Below, in pieces: positions 5,647 through 63,196 of a stretch of 64,000 nt of DNA (within the stretch, counting starts at the first letter, position 1; every line of letters begins with the position of its first letter). The DNA comes from an uncultured Cellvibrionales bacterium (GTDB lineage Bacteria > Pseudomonadota > Gammaproteobacteria > Pseudomonadales > Dasaniaceae): the NCBI GenBank assembly GCA_913019905.1, contig CAJVZD010000005.1, positions 62,001-126,000 on the forward strand. The letters are read 5' to 3'. The notes beneath the pieces were generated by a model that worked only from the letters and a program-made list of their open reading frames with translations, searched no databases and had not been told where the DNA came from. A program made the translations under genes and the position numbers.

Positions 5647-6762
5647 ATGAATCCAAGTAAAACATTGAAACCATTAAATCGAGCCCATTCGGTTTTGATC
5701 CTATTCTCGTCGGTGCTGGGCAGCGCTGACATTTTGGCGGCGTCCGGCGGTTCAGGTTTGAATTACTCAGTGTCGCCGACTTTTTTCAATACTGAGCTGA
5801 TCGCCAAATCAGAAGACGAACTTAAAGAGGCTCGCTTGAATTCCAGTCTTGGAATTTCGCTGTCTGGCAGCGATTTCTTTCAGCTTTCTATGAATTACAA
5901 AATGCTAGGGCGACTTGAAAATGCCAAAGCACCGATCAGTAGCATTGATCAAATATTGAATGCGTCAGTGCAAAGTAATGTTCTCGATAATTTGTTTAAT
6001 ATAAAAGCGGGAATTCGCGCAAATAGTATTGTGAGGCGGGGCGGAGAAAATTACAGCTATAAAGTCACTCCCGGTTTTTCTAAATCAATACACGATTTTG
6101 CCAAGCTCAATGTTAAATATAATTTCGAGTTGACTAAACCTTCTCAATATAAGTCAGTGAAAGAAACTCGGGGATACTCGCTGGGGCTAAAAGGTCAACT
6201 GGATTTCGGTAATATTCATTGGAATAGCGTGTATTCACAAGCCAGCGTTTTTCAGGAATTGCTAGACGAAAGCAAAGGGGTTCGAGATGTGACCGTTAAG
6301 CTGGATGGTAAGCTTAATCAGGACGCACTGAGTTGGACGAGTGTCTACTCAAAATCAAGCATTGAAAACGACGTATTAACACCGGCTGAAGATACGGAGG
6401 TGATAAAGATTCAATCTCGCTACCGTATAGTGCCCCAGATGCATTTGGAGCTTTCGAGTTCAAAAAAACGTAAAACACTGTTGTCGAGTCTGGATCAGCG
6501 AACCGGAAATGAAATACATCATGCCGCTGGTATCACCTGGTCTCCCTCTACGGATTATTCCCTGGCCTTTAATGTGAATAAATTTGATTCGACAGAACTG
6601 CACCAGGAGGATTATTACAGTAGTGGTAAGATTGTCTGGTTTCCTCAAAGTAATCTCGAAATGTCCTTTGGCTATGGCGACAAATTGTTGAAAGACAGTC
6701 GTGGACTAGTTATTAATGCAACCTTAGATCTCGACAATAGAAAAGGCTTCCATCCTAAATAG
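5647..6762 (+). CDS. Putative outer-membrane beta-barrel protein
   Basis: 371 residues with a signal-peptide-like start (hydrophobic HSVLILFSSVLGSADILAAS, about residues 14-33). The rest is a series of alternating amphipathic strands such as LNSSLGISLSG, FFQLSMNYKML, LGLKGQLDFG and NLEMSFGYGD, the pattern of a monomeric barrel. It resembles uncharacterised outer-membrane proteins of the TIGR03016 kind, but that is only an impression. The ATG has no good Shine-Dalgarno. It precedes the cytochrome/MauG operon in the same direction, separated by the AraC gene. A surface partner of that operon is possible but not shown. Confidence 0.55.
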   Translation: MNPSKTLKPLNRAHSVLILFSSVLGSADILAASGGSGLNYSVSPTFFNTELIAKSEDELKEARLNSSLGISLSGSDFFQLSMNYKMLGRLENAKAPISSIDQILNASVQSNVLDNLFNIKAGIRANSIVRRGGENYSYKVTPGFSKSIHDFAKLNVKYNFELTKPSQYKSVKETRGYSLGLKGQLDFGNIHWNSVYSQASVFQELLDESKGVRDVTVKLDGKLNQDALSWTSVYSKSSIENDVLTPAEDTEVIKIQSRYRIVPQMHLELSSSKKRKTLLSSLDQRTGNEIHHAAGITWSPSTDYSLAFNVNKFDSTELHQEDYYSSGKIVWFPQSNLEMSFGYGDKLLKDSRGLVINATLDLDNRKGFHPK

Positions 6763-7053: not shown

Positions 7054-8103
7054 ATGACAGATAGTTTGGTTGTTGCCGCGATTGCGTTTGCGCTGTCGCA
7101 AGTGACGCTTAGCATCTTGCTGTTATCCAGCAGCAAAGTCTGGTCTGTTCAGGAGCGACTATTCGCCGCTTTGTTAGCGGCAATAAGTTGTTACGTATTA
7201 ACACCATTGGTACGGTTGGAACCCTGGATGGCCATCGTACATTCGCTGCAAACGGCTGTTCCTGGCCTGTTCTGGTTATTTAGCGCCAGTTTATTCGATG
7301 ACCACTTCAGATTGCGGCGTTGGCAATTGGCATTGGTAGCGGCAACCGTGGCGCTACCTGTCATTGGTAAGTTACTAACGGGCTACGATTTCTTCTTGCG
7401 AACTCTGCCACAGGGACTGGAGTTTATTCTTGTCAGTCTGACCCTGGTGGCTGTTGCCCGTTATTGGCGGGAAGACCTCGTCGAGTCGCGGCGCAAGCTG
7501 CGATTGTGGTTTTGTGGGCTGAATGGCCTCTATCTTTTTGTCTTGCTGTTTCTTCGCGAGGTCGTTTTTCCTGAAACCCGTTGGCTGGCATCGCTCGAAT
7601 ACGTGCCAGCTGCCGGCATGTTATTGGCAACCAACGCAATATTCCTTGAATACAAGTCCGGTATTTTTTCATCGCCTTTAGCCGGTAGCGAACCTTTCCG
7701 GGAGATTAAGCCGACTACCGAGTCGACACCTGCCATTCTGCCATTGGATCACGAGTATAGTGAGATCACGGCAGCTTTAGGCCAATTGATCGAAGAACAA
7801 AAAATCTATCGCGAAACGGGTATCACGATCGGTCGCCTGGCTGATCAATTGGGAGTCCAGGAATACCGTTTGAGGCGGGCGATTAACCAGGGTTTGGGAT
7901 TCAGAAACTTCAACGACTTTCTTAATAAATACAGAATTGCAGAAGTGGCAGAACGTTTGTCTGATCCTATGCAGAAAAAGACGCCGGTGCTGACCATCGC
8001 ACTGGACACTGGATTTCGTTCCTTGAGCTCGTTTAATAAAGCGTTCAAGGAGATCCATCAAATACCTCCCAGCACTTTTCGACGTGATAGGCTCAATGGT
8101 TAA
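7054..8103 (+). CDS. Membrane-anchored AraC-family transcriptional regulator
   Basis: 349 residues. The first 210 form six or seven hydrophobic helices, from LVVAAIAFALSQVTLSILLL to LEYVPAAGMLLATNAIFLEY. A linker follows, then a C-terminal AraC DNA-binding domain (about 245-345) with ITIGRLADQLGVQEYRLRRAIN as first helix-turn-helix and TIALDTGFRSLSSFNKAFKEI as second. It is therefore an integral membrane sensor-regulator. GAGG lies upstream of the ATG. It is 148 bases upstream of the c4/MauG/beta-helix operon and in the same direction, so it is the obvious candidate regulator (inference). Confidence 0.85.
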   Translation: MTDSLVVAAIAFALSQVTLSILLLSSSKVWSVQERLFAALLAAISCYVLTPLVRLEPWMAIVHSLQTAVPGLFWLFSASLFDDHFRLRRWQLALVAATVALPVIGKLLTGYDFFLRTLPQGLEFILVSLTLVAVARYWREDLVESRRKLRLWFCGLNGLYLFVLLFLREVVFPETRWLASLEYVPAAGMLLATNAIFLEYKSGIFSSPLAGSEPFREIKPTTESTPAILPLDHEYSEITAALGQLIEEQKIYRETGITIGRLADQLGVQEYRLRRAINQGLGFRNFNDFLNKYRIAEVAERLSDPMQKKTPVLTIALDTGFRSLSSFNKAFKEIHQIPPSTFRRDRLNG

Positions 8104-8251
8104 GTAGCTCTTACAGGCAATGTTTTGCTGGTGAATAGTAAAAAAGAGTATCGGATTTCAAAATTCGTCAGCTTTAGTCAGTATTTAGGCAGCAATTCTT
8201 TTTTGATCGCAGTAGTCTATATCGAAATTTGAAGATAGGAGTGCCTTAAAG

Positions 8252-8920
8252 GTGAAAGCGTTAATAAAGCAATGCCAAACACTAGTAGTCGTATTATGCC
8301 TAAGCGGTTTTGGTGGTGTGCAGGCTGCAGTCGATTTGGAAGCCGGTAAAGCGCTATACGGCAGTTGCCAGGCTTGTCACGGTGCAAATGGTGAAGGTAA
8401 TCCCGCACTGCAGGCGCCTAGTTTGGCAGGACAGTTTGATTGGTATTTACAGAGGCAATTAACGTTCTTCAAAACCGGGGTTCGGGGTGCAGACGCGAAT
8501 GATCAGCTCGGAGCGCAGATGCGAGCCTCGGTAGCTTTACTGCCGGACGAACAGGCCGTCGCGAACGTCGCTGCCTATCTTGCTTCTTTATCCTTTGCTG
8601 CAGTGACGAATCGTATTAACGGTGATTTGCGCAACGGTAACAATTATTACCAGTCCAAATGTGGTGCCTGTCACGGCGGTAATGCTGAGGGAAATACCAT
8701 GATTAATGCACCTCGATTGAACGGTCAAGATGGTAACTATCTGCTGCGCCAGTATGCTAATTTTCAAAAAGGCATTCGGGGCGTACATCCGGATGACCGT
8801 TACGGTAAACAGATGAAAATGATGTCTGATAGTTTGCCAACGGAAAAGGACTTGAACGATGTGTTGGCCTTTGTTCACTCGCTGCCCTTGGTTAAAGAAG
8901 GTAAGGCTGGGGGGCATTAA
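8252..8920 (+). CDS. Di-haem cytochrome c4-type protein, periplasmic
   Basis: 222 residues with a Sec signal peptide ending near VQAA. Two cytochrome c domains follow, each with one CXXCH: CQACH at 39-43 and CGACH at 137-141. Candidate distal methionines lie in GAQMRA and GKQMKMM. The two-domain layout is that of cytochrome c4, which carries electrons in the periplasm. The start is GTG at 8252 with GGAG about ten bases upstream. It is the first gene of a three-gene operon; the next start lies one base past its stop. It probably donates electrons to, or accepts them from, the following di-haem enzyme. Confidence 0.88.
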   Translation: MKALIKQCQTLVVVLCLSGFGGVQAAVDLEAGKALYGSCQACHGANGEGNPALQAPSLAGQFDWYLQRQLTFFKTGVRGADANDQLGAQMRASVALLPDEQAVANVAAYLASLSFAAVTNRINGDLRNGNNYYQSKCGACHGGNAEGNTMINAPRLNGQDGNYLLRQYANFQKGIRGVHPDDRYGKQMKMMSDSLPTEKDLNDVLAFVHSLPLVKEGKAGGH

Positions 8921-8921
8921 A

Positions 8922-10181
8922 TTGACTGTTGCGTTTAAGCGGAGGTTTTGGCAAATAAGCTTTTCCCTGAGTTTATTTGTGGCTGCGATCTCAACAATGC
9001 CGCTACTATCGGCTAGTTCCTCCGATGTACCAGCTGCCTCGGATGTGCCAGTTTTCTCGTTCGAGCTCAGTCAGCGCTGTCCCCCGGGCTTTGAGAAGGT
9101 AGCGAGTGGTGGTTGTGAGTTGCGCACCCTCTATCAATTTTATGATTCTCTTAATGATAAGGGCGTTGGTGGAATGCAAACGTCTCTGCCAGCGATTCGA
9201 GATGGTTTCAGTCCCGAGCAGATCGACTTGGGACGTTTTCTGTTTTTTGATCCGGTTCTGTCAAGTGACGGAAGCTTATCTTGCGCTCATTGTCATCATC
9301 CTGATAAAGGTTTTAGCGATGGCCTCGACCGCAGCATTGGAGTGGCGGGCCATAAAGTAGCGCGTTCATCGCCTTCAATCTGGAATAGCGGGTTTTTGAC
9401 GTCTTTCTTTTGGGATGCTCGTGCCAAAACGCTTGAACAACAAGTGGAGGGCCCCCTCTATGCAGAGGATGAAATGGGTAATACACCGGAACATTTATTG
9501 GCATCCCTGAACGAAATACCGGTTTATCGGGACTTATTTCGCCAGGCTTTCCCAGACAGTAACAGTGACTCGATAGTTCTGGATCAAATTTACGTCGCGA
9601 TTGCGGCATTTGAAGCCTCGCTTGTTTCCTTGAATAGCCGCTACGATCACTACGCCCATGGTGATCATACCGCGTTAAATGACGCAGAAATTGAAGGCAT
9701 GAACGTTTTTCGTTCCTTTGTCGCGCGCTGCGCTGAATGTCATACGCCACCCTTGTTTAGTAATCAGCAAATAGCGGTTCTGGGAACACCCGAACCCGAG
9801 GGTCTACCTTTAGATATAGGTGCGGAAAAAACGTTTAACGCTCCTAAGTTGAAAGGCGGTTTTAAAGTGCCGTCCCTGCGAAATATCGCCAAAACCGCCC
9901 CTTACATGCACTCTGGACGTTTCGAAAATCTGCGCGACACCGTTGAGTTTTATACGAAAGGGCGCGGTCATGCGGTGCCGGAAGGTGTCGAGATGCAATT
10001 ACATTGGCATATTTGGGAGCCAGATTTAACTAGCTACGAATTGGATCGGCTGGTCGATTTCCTGAAAACCCTGACTGACGAAGTTTTTACACCTGAAATA
10101 CCGGAGCGAGTGCCCTCTGGGCTCGCGCCCATCAAACATAACAAAAAGATAAAAATCGTTTCACGAGGAGAAAGGTTATGA
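8922..10181 (+). CDS. MauG/CcpA-type di-haem cytochrome c peroxidase
   Basis: About 419 residues with an exported N-terminus (hydrophobic ISFSLSLFVAAISTMPLL). Haem sites are CAHCH (121-125) and CAECH (270-274), with the typical DLGRFLFFDPVLSSDGSLSC and VPSLRNIAKTAPYMHSG segments. The family reduces H2O2 or, as in MauG, oxidises another protein after translation. An upstream ATG at 8859 overlaps the cytochrome gene by 62 bases; TTG at 8922, just behind a GGGGG run, is preferred. The stop overlaps the next ATG by four bases, so the two are translationally coupled. Whether it is a peroxidase or a modifier of the next gene's product cannot be decided here. Confidence 0.85.
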   Translation: MTVAFKRRFWQISFSLSLFVAAISTMPLLSASSSDVPAASDVPVFSFELSQRCPPGFEKVASGGCELRTLYQFYDSLNDKGVGGMQTSLPAIRDGFSPEQIDLGRFLFFDPVLSSDGSLSCAHCHHPDKGFSDGLDRSIGVAGHKVARSSPSIWNSGFLTSFFWDARAKTLEQQVEGPLYAEDEMGNTPEHLLASLNEIPVYRDLFRQAFPDSNSDSIVLDQIYVAIAAFEASLVSLNSRYDHYAHGDHTALNDAEIEGMNVFRSFVARCAECHTPPLFSNQQIAVLGTPEPEGLPLDIGAEKTFNAPKLKGGFKVPSLRNIAKTAPYMHSGRFENLRDTVEFYTKGRGHAVPEGVEMQLHWHIWEPDLTSYELDRLVDFLKTLTDEVFTPEIPERVPSGLAPIKHNKKIKIVSRGERL

Positions 10182-11704
10182 GTGTAAGTCGAATAATTAC
10201 GTTGATGTTTGTCATAGTGGCGTTTGCCGCGGGAAGTTTTTGGGGCAGACAAGGAGCCGATACGACAGTTGTGATTAGTAGCAATTCTGACGGTAGCAGT
10301 TATGAGGGTGGTTTTAAATCTGACGCGTCCGCCGGTGTTAAGAGTAATGCTGCTCGAAGAGCCGTCGCCGTTCGCACCGTCAAAGGTAATGTACTAGTCG
10401 TCCAAGACGGGGAGTCAATTCAGGAGGCCGTTAAAAAGGCGGTGCCTGGCGACACCATTCAGGTAATGCCCGGAACGTACCGAGAGACCGTATACATTGA
10501 TAAAGATGACATACGATTGGTTGGCGTGATTAAAGAAGGTCGAAGAGCGACGATGGAAGGCGACGGCAAGCTGAATGACGCCATTTTGTATTCCGGCAAC
10601 AATATTGTGGTGGAGAATTTTAAGATTATGCACTACAAAGGCAACGGTATCATGGGGCAGGCTGGAAACAATTTTGAAATCCGTAATAATATTATTATTG
10701 ATTCAGGTGTTTACGGTATATTTCCTCAGCTTGGGAAAAATGGTCTAATTACCCATAATGTATTGTCACAAATTTCCGATGCTGCAATTTATGTGGGTAT
10801 GTGTGACAACATTGACGTGGTGCACAACGAGGTATTTGATAGTGTTGCCGGTATCGAAATTGAAAATTCTCGTCACGCCATTGTCGAGAACAATTATGCG
10901 CACGATAATGCCGCTGGCATTTTAACGTTTATTTCTCCAGGCCTTCCTATAAAAACCACGTTCGATGTCATTATTCGCAACAATTTTGTCGTCAATAATA
11001 ATCATGTCAATTTTGCCATAGTCGGATCTACCGTGGCTGGCGTGCCCTCGGGTACGGGTATTATGTCTATGGCCGCCGACGACGTCATTATCGAAGGCAA
11101 TATTATCTCTAATAACAAAACGGCCGGAATATTAATTTCTGATCATTACCACGCCGACAATTTGACGATTGATCCAGAGTCCGATCCCTACTCCGACCGC
11201 GTAATGATTCTAGACAACTTGATGGATAATAATGGCTACGACACGATTGATCCGATAAAGGCAGTAATGCTTGCCGAACTTAAACAAGTGAACCCGGATA
11301 TCGTTCATGTCGGCGAAACCAGGGGCAGCTGTATTAATAATCGTCACCGTTACAATACCGTCGGTATAGGAGAGTTCGTCGATTGTGATTTTACTAACAG
11401 TGCCGCGACGGTCAGTTATCTGTTGCCGGAACCCGTTGCACCGAGAGTCATCGAAGATAAAGATCGCGGTAGAATTGCCTATTTGGGCGTGTGTGCGGGC
11501 TGTCATACTTATACGGGTCGTATGATCGGACCACCAGTGCAAATTATTCAAGCGCTTTATATGGACAACCCAGAAGGTCTTGCAGCCTACATTAATAGCC
11601 CAGTCAAAAAACGTGACGATTATCCGGAGATGCCGCCGCAGAATTATCTGAGTGAAGATGTGCGCATGGCAGTGGCTGAGTACATGTTGCAGGTGAAAAA
11701 CTAA
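10178..11704 (+). CDS. Right-handed beta-helix protein with C-terminal cytochrome c site
   Basis: 508 residues. An N-terminal hydrophobic anchor or signal (IITLMFVIVAFAAGSFWG) is followed by VQDGESIQEAVKKAVPGDTI, typical of NosD/pectate-lyase-like helices. About 14 coils rich in N-N-x-I repeats run to about residue 360. A final domain holds CAGCH at 439-443 with YPEMPPQ downstream, whose Met is a likely axial ligand. It resembles the paired beta-helix family TIGR03805, but the haem tail is notable. It overlaps the MauG-like gene by four bases and is followed by a terminator, so it is the last gene of the operon. It is probably periplasmic or surface-exposed. Function unknown. Confidence 0.8.
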   Translation: MSVSRIITLMFVIVAFAAGSFWGRQGADTTVVISSNSDGSSYEGGFKSDASAGVKSNAARRAVAVRTVKGNVLVVQDGESIQEAVKKAVPGDTIQVMPGTYRETVYIDKDDIRLVGVIKEGRRATMEGDGKLNDAILYSGNNIVVENFKIMHYKGNGIMGQAGNNFEIRNNIIIDSGVYGIFPQLGKNGLITHNVLSQISDAAIYVGMCDNIDVVHNEVFDSVAGIEIENSRHAIVENNYAHDNAAGILTFISPGLPIKTTFDVIIRNNFVVNNNHVNFAIVGSTVAGVPSGTGIMSMAADDVIIEGNIISNNKTAGILISDHYHADNLTIDPESDPYSDRVMILDNLMDNNGYDTIDPIKAVMLAELKQVNPDIVHVGETRGSCINNRHRYNTVGIGEFVDCDFTNSAATVSYLLPEPVAPRVIEDKDRGRIAYLGVCAGCHTYTGRMIGPPVQIIQALYMDNPEGLAAYINSPVKKRDDYPEMPPQNYLSEDVRMAVAEYMLQVKN

Positions 11705-11712
11705 ATCATTAA

Positions 11713-11742
11713 CTCGGGCGGAAATTCCGCCCGGATTTTTTG
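11713..11742 (+). terminator. Rho-independent terminator after the cytochrome operon
   Basis: An 8-bp GC-rich stem (cgggcgga at 11715-11722 pairing with 11726-11733) with a 3-base loop is followed by a run of six T. It lies nine bases beyond the stop of the beta-helix gene. In the rest of the gene-free stretch to 12187 I see no gene or clear signal. Confidence 0.92.
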
Positions 11743-12187: not shown

Positions 12188-13360
12188 GTGAAACGCCAAC
12201 TTAATGTAGTATTGGTCTTACTTCTGAGTGCCTTCATATTAGCTGCCTGCGAAACACCGAAGGCAAACTCAATTCCCGCAACTGTAGATTTGAGTAGTGT
12301 TCGTCAGTTCATGGTTGATCAGGTTGAGTCCGGCCAAGTGCCAAGTGCCATTGCGTTGGTTTCAAAGAATGGCAAGATCGTTTTCCAAGAGGCTGTTGGT
12401 CATCAATCACCTGAGGTCGCGGCCACCCAGGACACAATTGTCAGATTGGATTCATTGACCAAGCCGATCACGGCTACGGCTATCATGATCTTGGTTGATG
12501 AAGGCGCGATGAGATTAGATGATCCGGTTGCGACCTATCTGCCGGCGTTCGCCGACATTAAGCTTGGTTTAGGAAAAACGGCGACAAAATCTATTACGAT
12601 CAGGCACTTGTTAACCCACACAGCCGGATTAGCTGGATATTCGCCCGAAGTAGACGCATTGTGGGGGAGTTCAACCAATGTCGAGTTTGCCGATGGAATC
12701 GCGCGCCTTCCATTGCGACATAACCCTGGTGATGGCTTCCAGTACGGCAATGCTTATGAAGTATTACCTGCAGTTGTAAACGTTGTCAGTGGCAAGGAAT
12801 TCGGTGAATTCGTGAGCGAACGGATATTGATTCCACTGGGGATGAACGATAGCTTTTTCCTTGTTCCTGAAGAAAAAAGAAATCGATTTTCGTCGCTCTA
12901 CACGAAAGATAAAAACGATCGATTTACCGTTATGTCAGCACCCAATGATCCGAATGCGGTAGCGTTTTCATCGGGGGGAGGTGGCCTGAAGAGTACAGTG
13001 GGTGACTATCACAAATTTGCCGATATGTTACTGAATGGTGGAAAGACCGCGGGGCTGCGCATTTTAAGTGAGCAATCTGTGAAAGCGATGACCGAGGTTC
13101 AGGTGTCTCCTGAAGTGCCGGGTACATGGAAAAAGGGCCGCGGTTGGGGCTATGGATTGGCGACTCGTTTTCTTCCGGGCACCGACAATCCTGAGCCGAT
13201 AGGCACATTTGGCTGGGATGGAGGTCTAGGAACGCTCTTCTTTATTGACCCTGCGCAGGATTTAATCGGAATTGTATTCACTCAAATTCATTACAGCAAC
13301 CCACACGAGCTACGTGAAGGTTTTCAGCAGAGGATACACCGCGCGTTTGTTAGTAAATAG
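12188..13360 (+). CDS. Beta-lactamase-fold serine hydrolase, lipoprotein
   Basis: 390 residues. A lipoprotein signal ends in LAAC with the lipidated cysteine at C21. The serine beta-lactamase/class C fold shows the SxxK motif SLTK at 89-92, HTAGL at 144-148, the YxN motif YGN at 186-188, and WDGGLGT in the place of the KTG box. This is the layout of EstB-like esterases and D-peptidases; true beta-lactamase activity is not implied. GTG at 12188 has a strong AAAGGAG. It stands alone. The 358 bases after it (13361-13718) hold two overlapping short frames on opposite strands, which I reject, and no clear terminator. Confidence 0.85.
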   Translation: MKRQLNVVLVLLLSAFILAACETPKANSIPATVDLSSVRQFMVDQVESGQVPSAIALVSKNGKIVFQEAVGHQSPEVAATQDTIVRLDSLTKPITATAIMILVDEGAMRLDDPVATYLPAFADIKLGLGKTATKSITIRHLLTHTAGLAGYSPEVDALWGSSTNVEFADGIARLPLRHNPGDGFQYGNAYEVLPAVVNVVSGKEFGEFVSERILIPLGMNDSFFLVPEEKRNRFSSLYTKDKNDRFTVMSAPNDPNAVAFSSGGGGLKSTVGDYHKFADMLLNGGKTAGLRILSEQSVKAMTEVQVSPEVPGTWKKGRGWGYGLATRFLPGTDNPEPIGTFGWDGGLGTLFFIDPAQDLIGIVFTQIHYSNPHELREGFQQRIHRAFVSK

Positions 13361-61611: not shown

Positions 61612-61660
61612 GCATCGTTTACATTATCGAACATTGGTTTACATTACCGAAGGAATAATC

Positions 61661-63196
61661 ATGTCGCTTAACCGCCGTCGTTTTATCGCTGCCAGTGCTG
61701 CTAGTGCTGCAATGAGTGTCTTACCTCTTTCAGCGCTGGGAAACGTGTTGTCAGAAGATAATAATCTGTCATGGCTTAAACGCTTTCATGACGCGAAGAC
61801 CAAAAAGCCGTGGCTTAGCGCTTATCAATCTGTTTCCAGCGATTCATTCAGTAGTCAAGCTCAAATAGAAGGGAAGTGGCCCCAGGACCTAACGGGAACA
61901 CTTTATCGCAATGGTCCGGCCAGGCACGAAATAGGTGATTTTCGCTACCAGCACTGGTTTGACGGCGACGGCATGTTACAGGCTTTTCGAATGACATCCA
62001 AAGGCGTTTTCCATCAGGGAAAAATGATTCAAACACAAAAATATCTGGCAGAAAACGCAGCGGGAAGAGCGCTTTATCCAGGGTTCGGAACCGTGCCGCC
62101 CAATCCAGCTCCAGTCACTAGCGCGGATTTGGTGAACGTCGGAAATATCAGTGTATTGCCCCATAATGGTAAGTTACTGGCGCTTTGGGAGGCGGGGTCA
62201 CCGTGGGACATGGACCCGGAAACTCTAGAAACTAAGGGGCTGCACAGTTTTTCTGCGGAAACCAAAGGTGTCCCGTTTTCGGCTCATCCAAGAGTCGAGA
62301 ACGATGGAACACTATGGAATTTCGGTTATGCTTCCTCAGCCAATTTGATCGTGCTTTGGCATATAGATAAGAATGGTAAGCCTGTAAAGGTAGGAACGAT
62401 TCCCTGCGATCCTATGAGCATGCCGCATGATTTTATTGTGACCTCAAAACACATTGTTTTGATGATGCCCCCACTCAATTACAAGCGCGAACATGCGTCG
62501 TCGTTTCTCGATGCGCATCATTGGCAGGAAAACCAGGCAACCAGAGTCTTGGTGGTAGACAAAAATGATTTTAGCCAGTACAAATGGCTAGAGCTACCGA
62601 GCCAGTGGGTATTCCATTTTGGCAATGGCTGGGAAGACGCTAGCGGTGTGATTCGTTTTGATGGCGCTCGAAGTGAAGACCCGATGATTATGATAAGCAG
62701 TTTTCGAGACATCATGAAAGGCGAGGTTAGTGAAAGCAGTCACTCGCGCCACCACCAGTATCGGATCGACACTAAAAGCTGGACTATAAGCGAAGAACCA
62801 CTATTTGCCGCCCATATTCAAACAGAGTTTCCAGCCATCGATCCTCGAGTTAGCTGTGTACGGAACAGGCGACTGGTTATGATGTCGAACAACGATAAGA
62901 CGCCTGCTGTGCATCCAAACCTCAATGAAGTCTGTAGCTTTGACCTGGAATCGGGGCTAAGGGATGCGTACCGCTACCCCGATAGCCAAATGCCAGAGGA
63001 ACATTTGTTTGTTGCCAAGCCGGGAAGCGCTCTTGAGTCGCAAGGATGGGTTGTTGGTACCGCCCATGACTGGCAAAAACAGACTACACTACTTAATGTT
63101 TTTGACGTCGAGGCTGTTTCTGCAGGGCCAATCGCGACCGCTACATTACCCTATGCGCTGCCATTAGGTTTACATGGAAAATTTGTTGCAAGTTAA
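61661..63196 (+). CDS. Carotenoid oxygenase-family protein with Tat signal
   Basis: 511 residues. Tat-like N-terminus MSLNRRRFIAASAASA, so exported folded. The four iron-binding His are visible as H209 (SAHPRVEND), H256 (SMPHDFIV), H319 (WVFHFGNGW) and H505 (LGLHGKF). The start LYRNGPARHEIG and HWFDGDGMLQAFRM are typical for carotenoid cleavage or lignostilbene dioxygenases. GAAGGA precedes ATG at 61661. The next gene overlaps its end by 23 bases. Substrate unknown. Confidence 0.87.
   Translation: MSLNRRRFIAASAASAAMSVLPLSALGNVLSEDNNLSWLKRFHDAKTKKPWLSAYQSVSSDSFSSQAQIEGKWPQDLTGTLYRNGPARHEIGDFRYQHWFDGDGMLQAFRMTSKGVFHQGKMIQTQKYLAENAAGRALYPGFGTVPPNPAPVTSADLVNVGNISVLPHNGKLLALWEAGSPWDMDPETLETKGLHSFSAETKGVPFSAHPRVENDGTLWNFGYASSANLIVLWHIDKNGKPVKVGTIPCDPMSMPHDFIVTSKHIVLMMPPLNYKREHASSFLDAHHWQENQATRVLVVDKNDFSQYKWLELPSQWVFHFGNGWEDASGVIRFDGARSEDPMIMISSFRDIMKGEVSESSHSRHHQYRIDTKSWTISEEPLFAAHIQTEFPAIDPRVSCVRNRRLVMMSNNDKTPAVHPNLNEVCSFDLESGLRDAYRYPDSQMPEEHLFVAKPGSALESQGWVVGTAHDWQKQTTLLNVFDVEAVSAGPIATATLPYALPLGLHGKFVAS

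Follow-up and report, generated by a model that had tools for sequence, protein, structure and literature searches.

A stretch of 64,000 nucleotides from an uncultured Cellvibrionales bacterium of the Dasaniaceae (contig CAJVZD010000005.1, positions 62,001 to 126,000), called the window here, contains an operon of three genes, which encode a di-haem cytochrome c4, a di-haem enzyme of the MauG superfamily and a beta-helix protein that ends in its own cytochrome c domain. The enzyme and the beta-helix protein are constant companions in the bacteria that carry them, and within the literature searched the combination looks like an undescribed envelope oxidation machine. We tentatively propose, with less than even confidence, that it is a periplasmic module for the oxidation of a small ligand, which the beta-helix would bind and which probably enters by import.

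The three genes lie end to end on the plus strand (Table 1). The c4 gene (GTG to TAA) is one base away from the enzyme gene (TTG to TGA), which in turn overlaps the ATG of the beta-helix gene in the four bases ATGA; a strong terminator follows. This is exactly the arrangement that an earlier note on this DNA had described. The start codons are predictions, and the TTG of the enzyme comes after a GGGGGG run. Presence of the operon as an artifact of assembly contamination (5.1%) was considered and dropped, because two genomes of the same genus also carry it.

The named collection yielded 405 related loci. Only the top 80 were retrieved, and so the counts are biased to close relatives. Loci with too short a flank were dropped from each count; at least 1300 base pairs (bp) of upstream DNA were required for the enzyme, at least 2300 bp for c4, at least 5900 bp for the AraC regulator described below and both flanks for a TonB-dependent receptor, which left 77, 72, 64 and 53 loci, respectively. 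All 77 have the enzyme gene ahead of the beta-helix gene, and 63 of 72 have c4. Before this filter 78 of the 80 loci carry the enzyme; upstream DNA in the remaining pair amounts to 0 and 203 bp. The gap between the enzyme and beta-helix genes is zero or less in 36 loci, 1-50 bp in 27 and 51-150 bp in eight. These 71 loci leave out five in which no enzyme open reading frame (ORF) was picked, two of which lack the DNA, and four more with no beta-helix ORF. The longest ORF was taken for each neighbor, and so the starts and some neighbors in high-GC DNA (locus L071) are unsure. The carriers, which are mostly marine, include Colwellia, Thalassotalea, Paraglaciecola, Bowmanella, Steroidobacter, Halieaceae and SAR92, among others.

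The other samples were evenly drawn and consist of 57 relatives, 274 genomes of the class and 398 genomes of the phylum. A full-length beta-helix protein is present in eleven of the 57 relatives, the window's genome included, and the two genes are side by side in all nine relatives that have the DNA; in the eleventh genome (G054) the contig starts inside the beta-helix gene. A separate search with the enzyme found ten genomes at 58-100% identity (499-967 bits), all among these eleven; the next-best match has 183 bits and 37% identity, and higher identities occur only in short fragments. The class sample adds two full-length carriers, both with an adjoining enzyme. One of them (G310, locus L070) also has c4 and the AraC regulator, and the other (G175, locus L071) has neither in the DNA available. 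The phylum sample contains six carriers besides the window's genome, and the enzyme adjoins in all six. The operon even reaches the Alphaproteobacteria: a megaplasmid of the laboratory strain Ruegeria pomeroyi DSS-3 (genes SPO_RS20595-20610) encodes a c-type cytochrome (39%), a 'cytochrome c peroxidase' (49%) and a beta-helix protein (45%). Its AraC is divergent, with only the HTH part alike, and a tetratricopeptide repeat (TPR) gene lies between the enzyme and beta-helix genes (L223, 10835-11911); the ORFs picked in the 80 gammaproteobacterial loci include no relative of the TPR gene.

As a control, six carrier genomes from outside the 80 named loci were sampled as 40 evenly placed 13.5-kb stretches and scanned at the same thresholds, and none of the stretches contained any of the three operon genes. 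This result, together with the conservation of the genes as a group, excludes a chance association. The three genes do occur together in other genomes, the check that the earlier note had proposed.

The enzyme is a member of the CCP_MauG family (PF03150), which it matches with 180 bits against a gathering cut-off of 25.6, and it has two CxxCH motifs. However, its best NCBIfam match, the MbnH family (TIGR04039), scores 218.2 bits, below the cut-off of 362.85, and its score for MauG (TIGR03791), 188.7 bits, is also below the cut-off (443.85). A tree of 75 enzymes, 33 from the subfamily and 42 comparators, was built by a quick method with long branches flagged. The 33 form one side of a branch with a Shimodaira-Hasegawa-like approximate likelihood ratio (SH-aLRT) value of 100 and are separate from the four over-cut-off MbnH members among the comparators. 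The comparators also include the 12 best TIGR03791 matches under the cut-off, and two pairs among the 42 are identical. No MauG over the family cut-off was present in the 150 genomes searched, hence none is in the tree.

The residues around the haems fit a MauG-like enzyme, as had been suggested. The subfamily retains the distal Glu and Pro together with the inter-haem Trp (Trp164), which from the alignment we take to be the equivalent of MauG Trp93. By alignment, Tyr344 has the position of the Tyr that is the distal ligand of the six-coordinate haem in MauG, and it is a candidate for that role here. Tyr is common at this position in the superfamily (34 of the 42 comparators, with Met in seven and Phe in one), and therefore it does no more than set the enzyme apart from the classical bacterial cytochrome c peroxidases (bCCPs). 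Trp154 and the His361-Trp362-His363 triplet are invariant in the subfamily and rare in the comparators, seven of which are gapped at the triplet. The invariant pair Ala268-Arg269 precedes the second haem motif, in what is presumably the place of MauG Trp199. The predicted model of the enzyme is of moderate quality (mean predicted local distance difference test score, pLDDT, 72) and contains no haems. The best solved match to its fold is the MbnH-type entry 6e1c (Z 26.6, 309 residues, 2.8 Å); mixed-valence bCCPs are within 1 of it (Z 26.0), and MauG entries are at Z 21.5-23.9. In one genome of the same genus (G003, locus L094, C2:700705-701795) the enzyme gene has a frame break near the C-terminus, and the adjoining beta-helix protein is intact at 503 amino acids.

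Compared with its characterized relatives, the enzyme is closest to MbnH, which has the best family score and fold, matches along nearly the whole enzyme and has the same Tyr position; it differs in its separate clade and in its partner, which is a beta-helix cytochrome and not MbnP. It shares with MauG the di-haem fold, the Tyr at the 294 position and the inter-haem Trp, but no methylamine dehydrogenase gene was recognized beside it. The bCCPs (CcpA/MacA) and BthA also share the fold, the haem motifs and the distal Glu. Unlike classical bCCPs, however, the enzyme lacks the Met ligand and the activation-loop His, which we take to be the His of the 'SIGHGWQKG' loop (the window's loop is SIGVAGHKVAR), and it has a constant beta-helix neighbor. 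BthA has the same Tyr but a Ser in place of the inter-haem Trp (PMC6405878).

The first gene of the operon encodes a protein whose best solved match is cytochrome c4 (1etp, E 1.9e-19), and it belongs to the c4 family; its haem motifs are CQACH and CGACH. The third gene product belongs to TIGR03805 (171.3 bits against a cut-off of 141.5). The AlphaFold model predicts a right-handed parallel beta-helix, with pLDDT values for ten-residue blocks of residues 71-320 mostly at 85-97 and dips to 59 and 71. Mannuronan C-5 epimerase modules are the closest in fold (Z 31.6-31.9; the AlgE6 module aligns over 281 residues at 2.0 Å with Z 31.9), with alginate and RbmB lyases close behind and NosD at Z 27.4. 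Beta-helix folds match one another widely, and 427 of 975 chains reach Z 8 or more, and so these values say little about function. The epimerase A-modules and NosD thus have the same fold, but no sequence link to the alginate epimerases was detected at E <=10. The NosD match is above the Pfam cut-off (47 bits, cut-off 23.6) but far below that of the NosD NCBIfam model (46 versus 300 bits). The C-terminal tail matches cytochrome Pfam families weakly (23.7 and 18.5 bits, both under the cut-off); a profile of 12 orthologues supports it as a class-I cytochrome c of the c551/c552 type. Met485, the probable sixth haem ligand, aligns near the Met-Pro-Pro of c551/c552.

Part of the beta-helix is shared with other TIGR03805-type proteins. 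The residues G177, Y179, G180, P183, D201, Y205, G207, E227, E229, N230, N239, N244, F251, N269, N274 and N278 are conserved at 0.98 or more in 41 TIGR03805-type relatives. Others are specific to the subfamily with the haem tail, namely M159, Q161, F182, Q184, M208, H233 and H323 (20 rows against the 41); Met159, Met208, Met349, His233 and His323 are subfamily-specific and invariant. Four positions switch with the type of partner (F182/Y, Q184/V, M159/K and M208/Q). Residues 159, 182, 205, 228 and 251 are 23 apart, and from this spacing alone they would be expected to line up along a single side of the helix.

The relatives of the beta-helix protein display a second pattern. Other TIGR03805-type proteins are without the haem tail. 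The phylum sample listed 37 further matches of this type; 23 were fetched, and in all 23 a TIGR03806-like di-haem cytochrome adjoins the gene, and in none is there a MauG-type enzyme within the flanks available. Likewise, no TIGR03806 relative is present in the six full-length haem-tailed loci of that sample, so that in this sample the two types of partner are mutually exclusive. Among 19 pair loci that we chose from matches in the relative and class samples, a TIGR03806 relative is present in 15, sometimes fused (L074). It is missing from L082, L083, L085 and L090; of these, L083 breaks off within the beta-helix gene and L090 was matched by the cytochrome domain alone. Genomes G007 and G039 have both kinds of beta-helix protein (L074, L081). 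Across these samples the haem tail goes with the MauG-type enzyme and its absence goes with TIGR03806; the unit is a beta-helix plus a haem protein, and the redox partner of the family is swapped between the two locus types.

This SO2930-family pair is the system most like the operon, because it too consists of a beta-helix and a c-type haem protein, and a relative of the window's AraC is near three of the 19 pair loci (L076, L083 and L084). In the window, however, the beta-helix has its own haem domain, the partners are a MauG-type enzyme and c4, and no TIGR03806 protein was found next to them. The passages on SO2931 in two papers mention it among outer-membrane cytochromes without a function (PMC10986466, PMC5829830). 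The earlier note considered a beta-helix an unusual scaffold for electron transfer. The TIGR03805/TIGR03806 pairing is already annotated, though uncharacterized, and the unusual features are instead the fusion to a haem domain and the MauG-type partner.

Two kinds of neighbor recur near the operon. A relative of the AraC regulator, which in the window has five hydrophobic stretches within residues 5-167, is near 35 of the 64 loci and none of the 40 control stretches. A TonB-dependent receptor is near 38 of the 53 loci and six of the 40 control stretches. The five-gene set proposed in the earlier note is therefore retained in part: the membrane AraC recurs, but the putative outer-membrane barrel of 371 amino acids, which ends 291 bp before AraC, was dropped, as matches of about 25% identity occur in just three of the 80 loci. 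This barrel probably does not belong to the system, and the outer-membrane partner that recurs is the TonB-dependent receptor. In two genomes of the same genus a second TonB receptor near the operon is split into plug and barrel ORFs (L060 2123-4212 and L062 2074-4154, as oriented, with Pfam run on L060 only), from decay or sequencing error.

Some loci also have catabolic neighbors. Five of the nine c4-less loci (L185, L186, L188, L192 and L198, from SAR92/Porticoccaceae) have a coenzyme A (CoA)-transferase before the enzyme and a thioesterase and an Old Yellow Enzyme-type flavoenzyme nearby (Pfam on L188 only). In L133, L142, L180 and L184, a short-chain dehydrogenase/reductase (SDR), an acyl-CoA dehydrogenase and a CoA-transferase (III) are downstream of the operon, and a MaoC-type dehydratase follows in three of them, L133 ending before the fourth gene; Pfam typing of this set was on L184 only (7540-11515). 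In the window itself, a hydrolase of the serine beta-lactamase family (12188-13360; PF00144, 227 bits) is directly downstream of the operon and clusters with no neighbor in the 12 loci compared. By eye, a long run of genes that look catabolic, among them SDR and acyl-CoA ligase-like genes, extends from 27556 to 63196, and the gene at 61634-63196 reads like an exported carotenoid-oxygenase-type protein.

Table 1. Features of the operon and its upstream neighbors (positions in the window)
Feature	Position	Strand	Evidence
'Barrel', 371 amino acids, hydrophobic N-terminus	5647-6762		TIGR03016 weak, 19.6 bits (cut-off 90.9)
AraC-family regulator, membrane N-terminal half	7054-8103	+	C-terminal HTH_18, 57 bits
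Di-haem cytochrome c4-like electron carrier	8252-8920	+	Pfam Cytochrom_C, 84 bits
c4 haem motifs	8366-8380 and 8660-8674	+	Two CxxCH
MauG-superfamily di-haem enzyme, 419 residues, signal-like N-terminus	8922-10181	+	CCP_MauG, 180 bits
Enzyme, first haem motif CAHCH	9282-9296	+	His invariant, 33/33
Enzyme, Trp154	9381-9383	+	33/33 in subfamily; Trp in 2/42 comparators
Enzyme, Trp164 of FWD, bCCP/MauG inter-haem Trp position	9411-9413	+	33/33; 38/42 comparators
Enzyme, second haem motif CAECH	9729-9743	+	His invariant, 33/33
Enzyme, Tyr344, place of classical bCCP Met ligand and MauG Tyr294	9951-9953	+	Tyr in 33/33
Enzyme, His361-Trp362-His363	10002-10010	+	33/33 each; comparators 0, 0 and 2 of 42
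Beta-helix protein, cytochrome c domain fused at its C-terminus	10178-11704	+	TIGR03805; Beta_helix 61 bits, NosD 47 bits
Predicted N-terminal membrane anchor helix, residues 3-24	10184-10249	+	Sequence and AlphaFold model
Right-handed parallel beta-helix domain, about residues 71-405	10388-11392	+	AlphaFold model
Beta-helix protein, haem motif CAGCH	11492-11506	+	C439, C442 and H443 invariant among 75 proteins
Met485, probable sixth haem ligand (YPEMPPQ)	11630-11632	+	Invariant among 75 proteins
Intrinsic terminator	11714-11734	+	9 pairs, U-rich tail, -16.6 kcal/mol, z -4.0

The module that we propose would work as follows. The neighboring AraC protein would regulate it, and the beta-helix protein, presumably anchored by its N-terminal helix, would hold the ligand in a putative conserved groove; most likely this is a small organic molecule that the cell imports. 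Its oxidation would fall to the di-haem enzyme, in which one haem would have a Tyr ligand as in MauG and the peroxidatic haem would be unblocked, and the electrons would pass through the beta-helix protein's own haem and c4 to the respiratory chain. The opposite direction can also be imagined, in which c4 supplies electrons and the enzyme activates O2 or peroxide. A shared substrate or electron path is the simplest account of the gene pairs, simpler than one partner modifying the other. That the ligand is a small molecule, and not a protein or a metal, is a guess. A small organic ligand is favored because TonB receptors are enriched, because two groups of loci have catabolic neighbors and because di-haem oxygenases provide precedents. 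Members of the superfamily act on fatty acids in Pseudomonas aeruginosa (PMC4496055), and the rubber oxygenases are members that oxidize a polymer (PMC6311187). Like the window's enzyme, RoxA/RoxB and PA2077/PA2078 are di-haem and bCCP-like, and they oxidize small or polymeric substrates outside the cytoplasm; the likeness is by analogy only. These enzymes have about 620-680 residues (Rox about 70 kDa), and the window's enzyme has 419. No Rox entry is among the PDB matches listed and no RoxA is in the phmmer or hmmsearch lists, which still leaves room for a distant kinship.

The proposal draws on gene order, conservation, the subfamily, haem motifs, residues at ligand positions and predicted folds, and several points weigh against it. 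The enzyme model is only moderate and haem-free. No relative of the recurring TonB receptor family is present in the first 20 kb of the window, nor is a TonB receptor near the operon of R. pomeroyi, which is also interrupted by the TPR gene. The catabolic neighbors are clustered by lineage and are missing from most loci. We keep our confidence below even because such neighbors are confined to certain lineages and the enzymes that serve as precedents are bigger. A more specific version, in which the three proteins form a tripartite enzyme and a third role for the MauG branch, the beta-helix, which resembles carbohydrate enzymes, presenting a substrate for long-range oxidation by the Tyr-ligated di-haem center with the fused haem as a wire, is possible but doubtful.

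The best of the alternatives follows from known MauG chemistry. MauG modifies methylamine dehydrogenase and MbnH modifies MbnP, and the enzyme might similarly convert the beta-helix protein into a catalyst or a binder, by modifying Tyr, His or Met rather than Trp. The strict pairing and coupling of the two genes, the 11 Tyr positions that hardly vary among 75 beta-helix proteins and the MbnH-type top fold relative would agree with this. However, the relatives in all 23 fetched loci pair with TIGR03806 and have no MauG-type neighbor, and Ala-Arg, not Trp, precedes the second haem motif. Moreover, unlike the tryptophan tryptophylquinone (TTQ) partner of MauG, the 75 beta-helix proteins have no conserved Trp; the best column has Trp in 31 and 12 proteins have none at all. 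A Trp-based modification in the manner of MauG or MbnH was therefore dropped. Consequently, the MauG-style modification raised in the earlier note is unlikely, as the family also occurs beside another haem partner, and we consider the version with other residues unlikely too.

Two further alternatives appear improbable to us. One is that the operon serves metal (copper) acquisition or cofactor maturation, with a complex imported by the TonB receptor and the metal handled by an MbnH-like enzyme and a NosD-like beta-helix. The MbnH and NosD matches in sequence and fold, the recurring TonB receptors and the subfamily-specific invariant Met and His of the beta-helix are in its favor. However, no MbnP-type protein is among the ten window proteins scanned, the typed neighbors are catabolic and the one receptor scored (L060) has 107 bits for the siderophore subfamily, under the cut-off of 223.5. 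The other, which also has a low probability, is a simple H2O2 peroxidase of the periplasm that takes its electrons from c4, with the beta-helix cytochrome as a docking partner or anchor. The superfamily is that of the bacterial cytochrome c peroxidases, c4 would suit such an enzyme as a donor, and BthA is described as a Tyr-ligated di-haem enzyme that is a true peroxidase (PMC6405878). On the other hand, Tyr replaces the Met ligand in all 33 enzymes, the 'SIGHGWQKG'-type activation loop is missing from the window's enzyme, the AraC and TonB linkage is unlike peroxide defense and a peroxidase needs no beta-helix partner. Least probable of all is that the beta-helix modifies polysaccharides or envelope glycans as an epimerase- or lyase-type enzyme with redox steps supplied by the haem proteins. 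Its closest folds, those of epimerases and lyases, are in favor of this, but such folds are unspecific, no sequence match to those enzymes was found at E <=10, and YGIFPQ, which resembles the AlgE catalytic motif, does not keep the acid and His of that motif.

The individual domains are all known, and the genes have been annotated piecemeal, for example as 'cytochrome c peroxidase' and 'parallel beta-helix domain-containing protein' in R. pomeroyi. No description of the operon was found in the open-access literature searched. If the tripartite interpretation is true, the beta-helix/TIGR03806 pairs would be a sister machine with another redox partner.

In conclusion, few partners of MauG-type enzymes are known to us, and this operon provides such an enzyme with a constant partner in mostly marine bacteria and in R. 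pomeroyi DSS-3. Loci in which this beta-helix family has another redox partner offer a natural set for comparison, and together these make the targets of uncharacterized MauG-like enzymes directly testable.

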